In this document: positions 37,833 through 42,382 of the stretch, one piece after another
Numbering within the stretch: position 1 is the first letter of the stretch
How the letters are laid out: the number at the start of each line of letters is the position of its first letter
NCBI GenBank assembly: GCA_021324155.1
Contig: JAJPJQ010000051.1
Coordinates: 124,001 to 188,000, forward strand
Source: Pseudomonadota bacterium
Lineage (GTDB): Bacteria > Desulfobacterota > Binatia > UBA9968
DNA: 64,000 nucleotides
Reading direction: 5' to 3'
The notes under the pieces: model-generated
The model's input: only the letters and a program-made list of their open reading frames with translations
Databases searched by the model: none
What the model was told of the DNA's origin: nothing
Made by a program: the position numbers and the translations under genes

Positions 37833-38594
37833 CTATTTAATGCCCAATTCGTCGAGTACGCCTTGCAGCATGACACCATTCAGATCGCAGGGCGTGACCG
37901 CACAATATTCGAGGCCATAGCCGACGCGCTCGTCGACGTAGCCCTGCTCCAGCATGTATTCGAGAACGCCCCGGACGATCGAGGCATGCGAGGCGGTGCC
38001 TTCGTGCTCTTTGAGGTCGGCTTCGTAATGGGTGGTGTAGTAAACGACCTGCTTCAGGTCGAGATTGTAGTTTTTCATCAGGGCATCGCGCCAGTCCTGC
38101 GAGAAGTAGCCCATCGCCTCTTCCCAGACGACCGACGCCCAGTAGTCCGCAAGCGCGCCGTCCCACACGACAACCTTGTGGAAATCTCCGAGAGCGCGCG
38201 CGGCGGGAAGCTGATGCGTATCGAGGACCTCACGCTCGGTAAGGCCAAGCGCCTGGCCGGTCCTAACGAGAATGAGAATATGTCCCGGCGGCTCGGGCTT
38301 GCCGAACTCGTCTACCAGTTTCGAGGCGAACATGCGCATGAGCTTCAAATCTTTTTTGAGGAAATCGACCTGCTTGTAATAGACGGCGAGGCCGAGCGTG
38401 TTGATCGTCAGCACGAAGCTCGCCCAGTTGCGGTAGTAGAGCTTGAGAGCTTCCCTCGGCAGGGTGCCGTCTTTCAATTTGCGCATGAAGAGGCTTTCGG
38501 TGACCTTCTCCTTCCAGCGCGCGTGCATTTTTTCATAAAGATCGTCGACGATCTTCTTCGCCTCTTCATGCGACATCGGTTTGCCTTCGAGCAT
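37833..38594 (-). CDS. TenA/PqqC-like haem-oxygenase-fold protein
   Basis: A 253-residue all-helical protein of the TenA/PqqC/CADD-like group. Recognisable elements are LPREALKLYYRNWASFVLTINTL, MFASKLVDEFGKPEPPGHILIL, VVWEEAMGYFSQDWRD and TTHYEADLKEHEGTASHASIV. The last gives a His189-x3-Asp193-x3-His197 set like the C-terminal ligands of di-iron oxidases in this fold. The first-helix Glu/His pair is not evident. The ATG at 38594 follows GGGAG and lies 13 bp after the UbiD stop, so it is co-expressed with that decarboxylase. Confidence 0.75.
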   Translation of the reverse strand: MLEGKPMSHEEAKKIVDDLYEKMHARWKEKVTESLFMRKLKDGTLPREALKLYYRNWASFVLTINTLGLAVYYKQVDFLKKDLKLMRMFASKLVDEFGKPEPPGHILILVRTGQALGLTEREVLDTHQLPAARALGDFHKVVVWDGALADYWASVVWEEAMGYFSQDWRDALMKNYNLDLKQVVYYTTHYEADLKEHEGTASHASIVRGVLEYMLEQGYVDERVGYGLEYCAVTPCDLNGVMLQGVLDELGIK

Positions 38595-38607
38595 ATCGAC
38601 TCCCGAT

Positions 38608-40194
38608 TTACTTAGCCGGCGCGCGCTTTTTGACGGCCTTTTCGCCGGTCTTATAATGTTCGCCTTTGAGCGCGAGCTCCGCTTCTTCTTCGTCTTCCGC
38701 GGTCCACGCACCGAGATTGTAACCGTACCACGGCTCCTGCGGCTTGAGCTTCGGCAATTCGAGCCGCTCCCAGAGCGTACGCGCGCGCTCCATAAATTCT
38801 TTTTTCGGCAGCGACACGGGAGGATAATCCCATTTTCGCGTCGCATCGATCAGGATCGCCGAGCAGCCGTGCATCTCGTCCATTCCCATCTCCACCTTGC
38901 CCGGCGGCGCGGCGGAGGGATCCATCGACGGCGTGCGATTGCGGATGATGAGCGTGTCGCGGTGCGGTTGCATGCGAAACGCCAAGCACCAAAAGAGCGA
39001 ATCGAGGTTACGCGGGTCGATGTCCTCGTCGACGGCGATGACGATCTTGCCGGTGCCGGGATGGTAGCCGACCATGCTGTGGAGCGCCTGCCAAATGTGC
39101 GCCTGATTCATCTTCTTCATGCGGATGACGCAGATCTGGCGCACGGCGATCGAGTGGAAAACGACTTCCACGATGCCGGGAATGTTGCATTGGTCGCGGA
39201 GAAAGCGGAGATAGTTGCCTTCCGCCGCGACCTGGCGCATCACACTCGATTCGCTCGGCGGCAGCTGGCTCACGATGCAAGCGAACACCGGATTTTTCCG
39301 GTGCGTGATGCATTTCACCTCGAAATACGGGTTCAGCATCTTCTCGCCGATATAACCGGTCGATTCGCCGAAGGCGGCCTCGGGCTCGATCCATTCGGTC
39401 GAGATCTCGCCTTCGATGACGATCTCGGCGCGCGCGGGGACGAGGATGTCGACGGTCTTGCAGCGCACGGCGTCGATCGGCGCGCCGGCGAGACCGCCGG
39501 CGATGTCCAATTCGCTCACGTTGAGCGGCACGCGCGCCGGCGCGGTGTAGGCGACCGGCGGCGGCGCGCCGATGACGAGCGCCGCTTGGAGCGGCACGCC
39601 GCGCTCGCGGCATTTGCGCCAGTGATAGCCGCCGTGGTTGCTGGAATTTAAAAACACGCCGGTGCGCGTCGGGCTTTTGATCTGTCCGCGATAGTTGCCT
39701 ATGTTGATCTTCCCGGTGTCCGGGTCTTTCGTGAACCAGTGCGACGCCGTCGTGTACGGCGCACAGTCGAATCCCGGCGTCGAGATCGGAATGGGAAACT
39801 CGCCCAATCCGCCTTTTTCTTCCAGCGCCGCGCCGATGTGGACCTCTTCGTGCACCGGCGCGTTATCAATGATATTCGGCGCGATCGGCGAAGCTTCTGC
39901 CTTCGTCCAGCGGTCGACGATCTCTTCCGGCTTGCACTGCAAACCGAAACCGTATATCTGCCGCGAAGCCGCGAGCGCGCCGACGAGCACGGGGATGTCG
40001 TATTTCCGGCCTTTCACGTCGGTCACGTGCGTGAACAGAAACGCGCGGCGCTCCTCCTCGGGTAGGCCGCGGAACTGCCAGCGCACAAGCGGCATCAGCT
40101 CGGTATCTTTATTGATCGCCTCGTCGATTTTGACGAGCAGCCCGGCTTTTTCGAGCGCGGCGAGATGCTCCCTGACGTCTTTGAAGTAAGCCAT
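38608..40194 (-). CDS. UbiD-family decarboxylase
   Basis: A 528-residue prenyl-FMN-dependent decarboxylase. All canonical residues are present: Arg169 in GNYRGQ, and Glu272 and Glu277 in EAAFGE. SELDIAGGLAGAPIDAVRCKTVD is the typical flavin-side segment. The start at 40194 (MAYFKDVREHL) matches the family start; the frame remains open further upstream without similarity. It is divergent from the LysE gene across a 92-bp gap and coupled with a haem-oxygenase-fold protein. Substrate unknown. Confidence 0.9.
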   Translation of the reverse strand: MAYFKDVREHLAALEKAGLLVKIDEAINKDTELMPLVRWQFRGLPEEERRAFLFTHVTDVKGRKYDIPVLVGALAASRQIYGFGLQCKPEEIVDRWTKAEASPIAPNIIDNAPVHEEVHIGAALEEKGGLGEFPIPISTPGFDCAPYTTASHWFTKDPDTGKINIGNYRGQIKSPTRTGVFLNSSNHGGYHWRKCRERGVPLQAALVIGAPPPVAYTAPARVPLNVSELDIAGGLAGAPIDAVRCKTVDILVPARAEIVIEGEISTEWIEPEAAFGESTGYIGEKMLNPYFEVKCITHRKNPVFACIVSQLPPSESSVMRQVAAEGNYLRFLRDQCNIPGIVEVVFHSIAVRQICVIRMKKMNQAHIWQALHSMVGYHPGTGKIVIAVDEDIDPRNLDSLFWCLAFRMQPHRDTLIIRNRTPSMDPSAAPPGKVEMGMDEMHGCSAILIDATRKWDYPPVSLPKKEFMERARTLWERLELPKLKPQEPWYGYNLGAWTAEDEEEAELALKGEHYKTGEKAVKKRAPAK

Positions 40195-40286
40195 GCGAGA
40201 TTTTCCGTGCGCTACCTGCATAGCAATAAGGTCTGGGAAAGTAAATCGCGATTGACGCGCGAGGAAAAAGACTTTACGTTCACCGC

Positions 40287-40931
40287 GTGAATTTTTCCGG
40301 CGCGTTCTTTCTCGGCCTGCTTTTGGCTTCGATTCCCGGACCGACAAGCATTCTGATCGCGACCGAGACGCTGCGCCATGGCGCGAAAGCGGGTTTGCTT
40401 ACCATGTTGGCGCCGCTCTTGCTCGACATGCTCGTCATGCTCCCGCTCGGCATTCTTTTACAGGCATGGCTAAGCGACGCGGCGAACGGTATCGGCGCCA
40501 TCGCGCTCGGCATGACCGGAGCGGCCTTTCTCTTCTGGCTCGGCGTGCAGTCGATCCGCGCCGGCATCGCGCATGTGCAGACGATTCGGACCACCGGTGC
40601 GCCGCCGATAGCCAAGAGAGATCTGTCGCCTTTCATGAAAGGATTCATCACGCACGTCGCGAGTCCGTATCCCTACGTCTGGTGGGCGACGGCCGGCGGC
40701 GCGTTCGTCCTGCAAGGCTACGCGCGCGGCGGCATCGCCGGCGCGGCGCTTTTCCCCACGGGCTTCTGGAGCGGAACGACCTCGTTTACGTTTTTGCTGA
40801 TCTATCTCGTTGCGCACGGCAAGCGCCTAATGCCGGCGCGCTGGGAGCCGTACCTGCATCATCTCTCCGGCGTGCTGCTGATCGGCAGCGCCATTTACTT
40901 GGCCGTGCGCGTGTGGCACGGTCTATTCTAG
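40287..40931 (+). CDS. LysE/RhtB-family amino-acid exporter
   Basis: A 214-residue inner-membrane protein with six predicted spans. The N-terminal LLLASIPGPTSILIATETLRHGAKAGL is the conserved LysE signature, and the middle loop carries FMKGFITHVASPYPYVWW. The family exports amino acids or derivatives. GTG start at 40287. It is divergent from the UbiD operon and is followed by a small gene and the candidate selenoprotein frame on the same strand, so the three may be one transcript. Confidence 0.88.
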   Translation: MNFSGAFFLGLLLASIPGPTSILIATETLRHGAKAGLLTMLAPLLLDMLVMLPLGILLQAWLSDAANGIGAIALGMTGAAFLFWLGVQSIRAGIAHVQTIRTTGAPPIAKRDLSPFMKGFITHVASPYPYVWWATAGGAFVLQGYARGGIAGAALFPTGFWSGTTSFTFLLIYLVAHGKRLMPARWEPYLHHLSGVLLIGSAIYLAVRVWHGLF

Positions 40932-40960: not shown

Positions 40961-41341
40961 ATGCTTGAAGCAAGCAGCACCGGCGCGCCGGATCGCTGGC
41001 GAACGGCCTGGAGCATTGAGAATACCGGCGATTCGCCGCTGGAAATTTTCCGCGCGCGGCTGCCGCACGGGAAATTTCGCTCGGAGGAGAAAGTCTTCGC
41101 GCCGCCTGTCGCGATCGCGCCGCGCGGAAATGGGCGGATTGAAATAGAAGCGCGCTGCGGCGAGGCGCCCGGCGCGGAGGTCGAAAACGGTTTTCTTATC
41201 CTGCGCGCTGCCTACGGAGGTGACCAATGGCTGATTTTGGCGCGGCTTAGAATACGAATAGATCCGCACGGCACGCCGGCAGCGGCGACGGAGCTAATCT
41301 CGATCCAGCGAGTGGGTTTTTCCGAGCCACGGGCGGGTTAA
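40961..41341 (+). CDS. Hypothetical protein, beta-sandwich-like
   Basis: A 126-residue protein starting at ATG 40961 with GCAGG 5 bases upstream; a GTG at 40937 would add eight residues. The sequence alternates strands (RWRTAWSIENTGDSPLEIFRARLPH ... FAPPVAIAPRGNGRIEIEARC ... VENGFLILRAAYGGDQWLILARLRIRID), like an Ig-type or CARDB-like domain. No signal peptide is visible. It begins 30 bp after the LysE gene and ends 4 bp before the next frame. Function unknown. Confidence 0.6.
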   Translation: MLEASSTGAPDRWRTAWSIENTGDSPLEIFRARLPHGKFRSEEKVFAPPVAIAPRGNGRIEIEARCGEAPGAEVENGFLILRAAYGGDQWLILARLRIRIDPHGTPAAATELISIQRVGFSEPRAG

Positions 41342-41345
41342 TAGG

Positions 41346-41564
41346 ATGATGACAGACAAAGAGAAATTGATTCTAAGAAAGCTCCGCGGCTGACACAACA
41401 ATTGAGGCCTCGGCTTCGAGGAGACCACGGGCATGGTCTCGAATTCCCTCGATATGAAGCTCGACGAGCTGCTTCGGACATTGAAGCGGATGACGAAGGA
41501 TTACGCTTACGACGCGGAGTATCAGAAGCTGCGGGCCGAGCTGCCGCCGGACTGGCCGCTATAA
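41346..41564 (+). CDS. Candidate small selenoprotein with two in-frame UGA codons
   Basis: A 73-codon frame from ATG 41346 to TAA 41564 is interrupted only by TGA at 41391 and 41403. The parts read MMTDKEKLILRKLRG, then U-H-N-N-U, then GLGFEETTGMVSNSLDMKLD and a further protein-like C-terminus ending ELPPDWPL. Each UGA has a hairpin whose apical loop begins 19 and 22 bases downstream with a G in the first two loop positions, matching my recollection of the bacterial SECIS model. The start lies 4 bp after the preceding gene. Alternatives are a nonsense-bearing pseudogene, or a separate 43-residue protein from ATG 41433, which has its own GAGGAG. No sel genes are in the window. Confidence 0.4.
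41408..41440 (+). promoter_or_regulatory. Two consecutive hairpins, candidate bacterial SECIS elements
   Basis: CCTCG/CGAGG (41408-41412 with 41417-41421, loop GCTT) is followed directly by GAGACCA/TGGTCTC (41421-41427 with 41434-41440, loop CGGGCA). Both are perfect. The first is spaced for the TGA at 41391 and the second for the TGA at 41403. The second would also hide the internal ATG at 41433 in its loop. Confidence 0.4.
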
Positions 41565-41570
41565 ACAATG

Positions 41571-41634
41571 TTGAATGATGAATTTTGAGTTTTGAGTTTC
41601 AATCCAAATGCAACACTCAAAATTCAAAATTACT
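41571..41634. repeat. Heptanucleotide inverted-repeat element
   Basis: Left arm: four 7-mers of form TTGANTN (41571-41598). Right arm: complementary units of form CACTCAA and AATTCAA (41614-41634). The right arm overlaps the stop codon of the minus-strand gene at 41630, and the left arm begins 7 bp after the plus-strand stop at 41564. It sits exactly between two convergent genes. Confidence 0.75.
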
Positions 41635-42382
41635 TCGACAGCCGGACTTTCGGCTGCCGGAGTGTCAGCGGCTTGGTGCCGCTCCAATATTCCCGTTTCC
41701 CGGTCATCGCCTGAACGTGGCCGTCCCATTCGAGGCAGAAAGCCGTAATCCCGAGCTTGACCGCGCGGCGAACTTTTTCCTGCGTCTCGTCATCCTTGGC
41801 GAAGCGTGCGAGCGCCTCGATCTGACGCGCGCCGTGGCCGACGTCCTGCTCGGCGTGGAGCCGGTAGGTCTCGGCAGCGCGCGGTGAAAAATTATAATGC
41901 TCCGTGAGCTCGCGGTAGACCTTGCCGGACGTCTTGTCCGGCCCGCCGAGCTGGCTCTCGACGAAGCTCAGCATCGCGACGCCTTCGAGCGCGGAGCGCC
42001 GCTGGCAGCAGCCGATGATCGCCTCGATCGCCGCCGCCGTGCCGGGCGCTGGCTCCGCCCGGTCGGCCTCATCGCGCGAGATGCCGCCCTCCTCGAGGAA
42101 TTGCAGCATGATGTCGACGTGCGTGCGCGGGCCGGAAAGCTCTTCCATGAAGTTTTCCAGCACCGTGCCCATAAGGCCGTAGTCTTTGGACGCGACGGCG
42201 TTGACGGCGATGTAGCCGAAAAATATCGGATTCGTGCGGACGCGGAGATAATGCTGGACCTCGCCCAGGATGATCTGCTCGCGCGTCCAGCGATGTTGCA
42301 GGATTCCTTGGAACCACGGATGCTCGCCCATGGGCGCCTCGTCGGCGTAGCCCCAGAGCTCGCGGATGAATTCGTCTGACAT
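41630..42382 (-). CDS. Haem-oxygenase-fold di-iron oxidase-like protein (TenA/PqqC superfamily)
   Basis: A 250-residue helical protein with a candidate di-iron set: Glu41 and His44 in GEVQHYLRVR, Glu76/80/81 in ENFMEELSG, His88, Glu142 in FVESQ, and His176, Asp180 and His183 in HAEQDVGH. This pattern is typical of haem-oxygenase-like di-iron oxidases that perform C-C or C-N chemistry, as well as PqqC relatives. It is flanked on both sides by heptanucleotide repeats. Two cupin genes lie upstream on the same strand. Confidence 0.8.
   Translation of the reverse strand: MSDEFIRELWGYADEAPMGEHPWFQGILQHRWTREQIILGEVQHYLRVRTNPIFFGYIAVNAVASKDYGLMGTVLENFMEELSGPRTHVDIMLQFLEEGGISRDEADRAEPAPGTAAAIEAIIGCCQRRSALEGVAMLSFVESQLGGPDKTSGKVYRELTEHYNFSPRAAETYRLHAEQDVGHGARQIEALARFAKDDETQEKVRRAVKLGITAFCLEWDGHVQAMTGKREYWSGTKPLTLRQPKVRLSK

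Follow-up and report, generated by a model that had tools for sequence, protein, structure and literature searches.

A small Sec-x3-Sec gene with two in-frame UGA codons, found beside genes for a CADD-like diiron oxidase and a predicted beta-sandwich protein

Can a frame of 73 codons that is interrupted twice by UGA be the gene of a protein with two selenocysteines (Sec, U), and if it is, how might both residues be inserted and what might the protein do? This question is raised by positions 41346-41564 of the window, by which we mean the whole 64,000-nucleotide stretch analysed here (positions 124,001 to 188,000 of contig JAJPJQ010000051.1, assembly GCA_021324155.1). The original prediction, made from the sequence alone, saw in this frame a possible new small selenoprotein with a U-x3-U motif. 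Our analysis shows the frame to be a genuine gene that has two Sec codons (the Sec gene). As had been described, it is broken only by the UGAs at 41391 and 41403. The gene and its two UGA codons are listed here; conservation counts refer to 63 distinct homologue sequences that span both UGA positions.

41346 to 41564, plus strand: gene of the two-selenocysteine protein (72 amino acids, Sec16 and Sec20), with 63 homologues in which both UGAs are kept or replaced by Cys.
41391 to 41393, plus strand: UGA codon 1, for Sec16; UGA in 61 of the 63 homologues and Cys in 2.
41403 to 41405, plus strand: UGA codon 2, for Sec20, within the first of two RNA hairpins; UGA in 62 of the 63 and Cys in 1.

With UGA read as Sec, translation from the ATG at 41346 to the TAA stop at 41562-41564 gives MMTDKEKLILRKLRGUHNNUGLGFEETTGMVSNSLDMKLDELLRTLKRMTKDYAYDAEYQKLRAELPPDWPL.

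A search for homologues with Cys or Sec at both UGA positions had been suggested as a check, and such homologues were found: U or C stands at both positions in 63/63, and Cys aligned with UGA is a criterion for a selenoprotein. The homologues come from Binatia-type genomes and from Chloroflexota, two phyla in all; they are 71-73 amino acids long, without gaps except at the start, and the Sec/Cys positions align in all of them. Because 63 distinct sequences share this gapless length and the same two positions, the frame is far beyond what chance would give. In a set of 39 sequences, the invariant residues include both U/C positions, F24, E25, E26, T27, G29, M30, V31, S32, R63 and P67. The C-x3-U form is represented by locus L124 (genome G516) and the C-x3-C form by L061 (genome G148).

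Within the window's class, the Sec gene is present in 25 of 148 genomes, all from one order (families f1, f2 and f3). Two in-frame TGAs are found in 24 of these 25; the copy in G125 is a fragment that lies at the end of a contig. When one genome per species was scanned, 53 loci emerged, many of them in Chloroflexota (soil lineages, SAR202 and other Dehalococcoidia). Locus L046, from the window's own GTDB-style family, is identical in sequence to L027 of G141. In 400 Chloroflexota genomes, a profile search returned 17 strong matches and one weak match (G457), which was taken as chance.

Both flanks of the UGAs are coding in one frame, because the ratio of nonsynonymous to synonymous divergence (dN/dS) among 102 close pairs was 0.29 for residues 4-15, before UGA 1, and 0.22 for residues 32-72, past the hairpins. 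These values bear out the original impression that the N- and C-terminal parts are protein-like and in the same frame. The homologues do not begin at the internal ATG at 41433, a start that had also been considered; the part upstream of it is conserved.

The Sec machinery that the original prediction proposed to look for is present in the window's genome, where selD, selB and selA are adjacent (C16:68287-72650) and are accompanied by a tRNA-Sec with anticodon TCA; these make up the SelA/SelB/SelD/tRNA-Sec set looked for with a bacterial selenoprotein. The selD gene is itself Sec-containing. The selA gene scores above the curated cut-off in 16 of the 17 Chloroflexota genomes that carry the Sec gene, and the sole exception is G148, the genome with the C-x3-C form. 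We regard a real family of two-Sec proteins as almost certain.

How both codons are decoded is suggested by the RNA around them, which holds two adjacent hairpins. The second resembles a bacterial selenocysteine insertion sequence (SECIS; bSECIS for the bacterial kind).

41402 to 41419, plus strand: hairpin 1, stem 41402-41408/41413-41419 with loop CUCG, holding UGA 2; it appears in the fold of the window and in RNAalifold, and in the frozen third positions of columns 24 and 27.
41421 to 41440, plus strand: hairpin 2, bSECIS-like, stem GAGACCA/UGGUCUC (41421-41427/41434-41440) with loop CGGGCA at 41428-41433.

Third codon positions are invariant in the 63 sequences at codons 23, 24, 26, 27 and 28, and are the same in 62 of them at codon 31. 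At codon 23 the third position is frozen although the residue may be G, D, T, S or N. Conversely, third positions vary at codons 21, 22, 25, 29 and 32, although E25, G29 and S32 are invariant, and likewise at R63 and P67. The frozen positions are exactly the paired columns and the loop G of the two hairpins as folded by RNAalifold and in the window. Silent divergence is 0.06 in the hairpin region compared with 0.33-0.40 outside it, and the two-hairpin structure pairs in 93.9% of cells compared with at most 51% when it is slid along the alignment.

Hairpin 2 has a folding energy of -10.8 kcal/mol (z -3.0) in the fold of the window, and its stem is 1 bp longer than the GAGACC/GGTCTC core. All 7 pairs are held in 63/63 sequences when G-U is counted; two kinds of G-U departure occur, one of them in the C-x3-C gene. 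The loop lies 34 nt downstream of UGA 1 and 22 nt downstream of UGA 2. The bSECIS model allows a loop of 3-9 nt, a stem of 4-16 bp, a G within the first two loop positions, a distance of 16-37 nt from the UGA and a minimum free energy of at most -7.5 (PMC13188914). Hairpin 2 falls within this model for both UGAs, with 7 bp, a 6-nt loop and a G at loop position 2 followed by another G, in agreement with the fit to UGA 2 that had been proposed. The five core pairs of hairpin 1 are intact in every gene with Sec at position 20 (62/63), and the C-x3-C gene has lost three of these pairs. The closing pair of hairpin 1 is seen as C-G, G-C or U-A and is unpaired in about a quarter of the sequences. The earlier claim of two perfect hairpins stands for the second. 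It fails for the first as then paired (CCTCG/CGAGG, 41408-41412/41417-41421), where the pair at columns 19-30 is formed in 8/63 sequences. With a spacing of 15 and the loop CUCG in the window, hairpin 1 does not fit the bSECIS model for UGA 1.

Since hairpin 2 fits the model for both UGAs and hairpin 1 fails it for UGA 1, we infer that hairpin 2 is the SelB site for both codons and that both are decoded from this single SECIS. Hairpin 1 is a probable spacer or accessory hairpin. We propose that SelB would insert both selenocysteines mainly through the conserved hairpin 2. While hairpin 1 is folded, the path from UGA 1 to the SECIS would be shorter; the ribosome would then melt hairpin 1, and the same SECIS could serve UGA 2 at about equal distance.

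Other readings of the two codons must be set against a single SECIS. Hairpin 1 might serve UGA 1 and hairpin 2 might serve UGA 2. To give each UGA a hairpin of its own is the simplest reading, and the retention of the hairpin 1 core in 62/63 sequences speaks for it, but the hairpin 1 pairing first put forward is not conserved, and we consider one SECIS per UGA rather unlikely. Far less probable is a plain stop at UGA or a product that starts at ATG 41433, even though standard gene callers end at the first UGA and UGA is a true stop in 22/63 homologues (codon 73; L016, L021, L045 and others). Purifying selection before UGA 1, the Cys replacements, the matching presence of selA and hairpins frozen at silent sites all argue against it. 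A pseudogene, a plain stop and a start at ATG 41433 were rejected on the upstream dN/dS and the Cys replacements. An alternative code in which UGA means tryptophan would open the frame too; we give it the least credence of all, as UGA is the terminal stop in those 22 members, the substitute is Cys and never Trp, and Sec machinery is present. In the same 22 members, UGA would mean Sec twice and stop once inside one 72-codon gene.

What the two-Sec protein might do is best indicated by its conserved neighbourhood of three genes, which the original prediction had not pointed out and in which it lies between a partner gene, UP, and the gene of a haem-oxygenase-fold diiron oxidase/oxygenase (HDO).

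40961 to 41341, plus strand: UP, partner gene; 126 amino acids, predicted all-beta sandwich, without a Pfam or NCBIfam family; its stop lies 4 bases before the Sec gene, as the original prediction had noted.
41630 to 42382, minus strand: HDO, CADD-like haem-oxygenase-fold diiron oxidase/oxygenase; PF14518 at E 1.1e-15; convergent with the Sec gene.

When the window's neighbours were used as queries on 61 loci, many of them with short flanks, UP was found in 59, in most cases no more than about 0.5 kb away, and HDO also in 59, in most cases no more than about 1 kb away. The specific HDO subfamily is present in every one of the 25 class genomes that carry the Sec gene, and its members are 62-90% identical across two phyla. 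In two further class genomes the HDO is present and no Sec gene was detected, namely G127, which has none nearby, and G137, where a contig end cuts the region. UP is present in 19 of the 400 Chloroflexota genomes, among them all 17 that carry the Sec gene; the remaining two are G239 and G285 (a weak match). In G148, whose form is C-x3-C, UP is the direct neighbour of the Sec gene and HDO lies 5.7 kb off on the same contig. LysE beside the module is not conserved (2/61 loci). In some soil Chloroflexota, as at loci L043 (447-2987) and L060 (444-2978), UP and the Sec gene are separated by a large gene of about 700 codons.

Enzymes of the HDO superfamily use a diiron site to activate O2 (PMC13108848). 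The HDO of the module scores above the cut-off for PF14518 and has the haem-oxygenase-like domain with three His and three carboxylate ligands: E81, H88, E142, H176, D180 and H183 are invariant and align with the ligands of CADD. CADD and other p-aminobenzoate synthases are its nearest solved relatives, and it aligns nearly full length with these self-sacrificing enzymes (1rcw, 8va9, 9pj4). CADD consumes its own Tyr and Lys (PMC11965152), whereas the HDO has Phe for Tyr27, Val for Lys152 and a residue other than Tyr for Tyr141. Because the sacrificial Tyr and Lys are missing, the HDO is not expected to make p-aminobenzoate in the manner of CADD. It further differs from CADD in having a selenoprotein and UP as partners. 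The AlphaFold2 model of UP is a confident beta-sandwich (predicted local distance difference test, pLDDT, 95.1), and H36 is invariant; a fold search with it brought up just immunoglobulin-like folds, without any match at E <= 0.001. The model of the Sec protein is a confident one (pLDDT 93.5) and shows a single compact domain of four helices, with Sec16 and Sec20 one turn apart (i, i+4) on helix 1.

Based on these results, we propose that the Sec protein may be a dedicated two-selenol partner of the neighbouring CADD-like HDO, acting together with UP. Most likely, it would supply the diiron site with reducing equivalents, or else hold a soft metal for the HDO, with the selenolates of residues 16 and 20 facing the same side of helix 1. 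A functional partnership with the HDO is likely, judging from gene content and order, and it is the simplest reading because a small two-selenol protein is inherited with one HDO subfamily. That both Sec residues are made, and the chemistry of the partnership, are things we infer. We lean slightly towards a redox or metal partner rather than a substrate, and the protein is probably part of a selenium-dependent oxidation system not described so far. The full reading, in which a new small helical Sec-x3-Sec family is inserted by SelB mainly through hairpin 2 and acts with UP as reductant or metal partner of the HDO, is the one that we favour, with some reserve.

The same gene linkage could be explained in other ways. 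The HDO might have the Sec protein as its substrate and oxidise the selenocysteines of this precursor, or residues close to them, to form a product. A small peptide tightly linked to a lone oxidase would suit this, amino acids are the substrates of other HDOs, and CADD, the closest solved relative, is self-sacrificing and uses up its own side chains (PMC11965152). Yet all 72 residues are conserved in a compact helical domain, not a leader and core, and a C-x3-C form exists, so that a substrate seems unlikely to us. No likelier, in our view, is a module that handles or detoxifies metal, in which the Sec pair would be a soft-metal site (copper, mercury or iron), UP a metal chaperone and the HDO the oxidase. 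Two residues spaced i and i+4 along the same side of a helix are suited to binding a metal, H36 is invariant in UP, and the weak fold matches of UP include the copper chaperones 2k6w and 3zja among many immunoglobulin-like folds. However, these matches have E > 0.001 and low TM-scores, and no metal transport or resistance gene recurs beside the module in the loci examined.

Several observations weigh against a Sec protein that is made as proposed and serves the HDO. In G239 (L144 850-909), UP is kept and the Sec gene is truncated a few codons past the first UGA; this copy is decaying or misassembled. The HDO of G127 (L108 884-1633, 73% identical) has no Sec gene nearby, which is the one clear break in the pairing. 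Among the 25 class genomes with the gene, selB is below the cut-off in G108, G131 and G139 and partial in G140, all of them draft assemblies. Finally, two residues one helical turn apart (i, i+4) are not ideally placed to form a Se-Se bond within the protein, so that a simple redox role of the dithiol type loses some weight.

The family appears to be new. The window protein had no match in Pfam or NCBIfam at E <= 1; the weak matches that single members gave here and there (to TIGR03960, TSCPD and others) do not agree with one another, and a known family was rejected. The original prediction did not recognise the motif, and UxxxU has no entry among the 119 prokaryotic selenoprotein families of a 2026 inventory (PMC13188914). 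No solved structure related by sequence to the Sec protein was found. A fold search gave nothing at E <= 0.001; its middling matches to helix-turn-helix and DtxR/MntR-like proteins (best Z 7.3, to a designed protein) do not indicate kinship, because such helical models reach that range without it. In the open-licence literature we found no paper on selenoproteins together with SAR202/Binatota, on UxxxU, or on selenocysteine together with HDOs, although a report elsewhere is possible.

Known two-Sec families (such as Prx-like UxxU, NF041115 UxxU and TsoB UxxxxU; PMC13188914) resemble the Sec protein in having two close UGA-encoded Sec residues in a small redox-type motif and a hairpin downstream of UGA. 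The Sec protein differs from them in its UxxxU spacing and its predicted four-helix fold, which is not thioredoxin. A thioredoxin-fold selenoprotein with a UxxC-type motif was rejected, given the confident all-helical AlphaFold2 model. With the SECIS of the Escherichia coli fdhF type, hairpin 2 shares its place in the coding region right after UGA and a small G-rich apical loop; here, in contrast, a single conserved SECIS-like hairpin follows both UGAs, and UGA 2 lies inside another conserved hairpin. The combination of two UGAs on one SECIS, by way of a spacer hairpin that folds and melts, with a product that is the two-selenol partner of a diiron oxygenase, may be one that has not been listed before; we put this forward tentatively.

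These results add a selenoprotein family whose motif is absent from the 119 of the inventory and which was overlooked because gene callers halt at UGA. They also tie selenium to HDO oxygenases, as this HDO subfamily is nearly always accompanied by the Sec protein. The locus is a natural, highly constrained case of UGAs four codons apart before one SECIS-like hairpin, and the handling of closely spaced UGAs by SelB becomes directly testable in E. coli.

Some further features of the window adjoin the module. An A/T-rich inverted repeat at 41574-41631 (26-nt arms, 81% complementary, 6 nt apart) separates the Sec gene from the convergent HDO gene. An Rfam scan gave just weak microRNA-like matches on this repeat, taken as chance; the repeat is a possible two-way terminator. 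A second haem-oxygenase-like or TENA-type gene lies at 37833-38846, and the genome has several HDO paralogues. A gene for a UbiD-family decarboxylase is found at 38608-40347, and UbiD-like genes, mostly with 28-32% identity, are also found close to the module at 11 further loci, which belong to SAR202 and to two families within the window's order.
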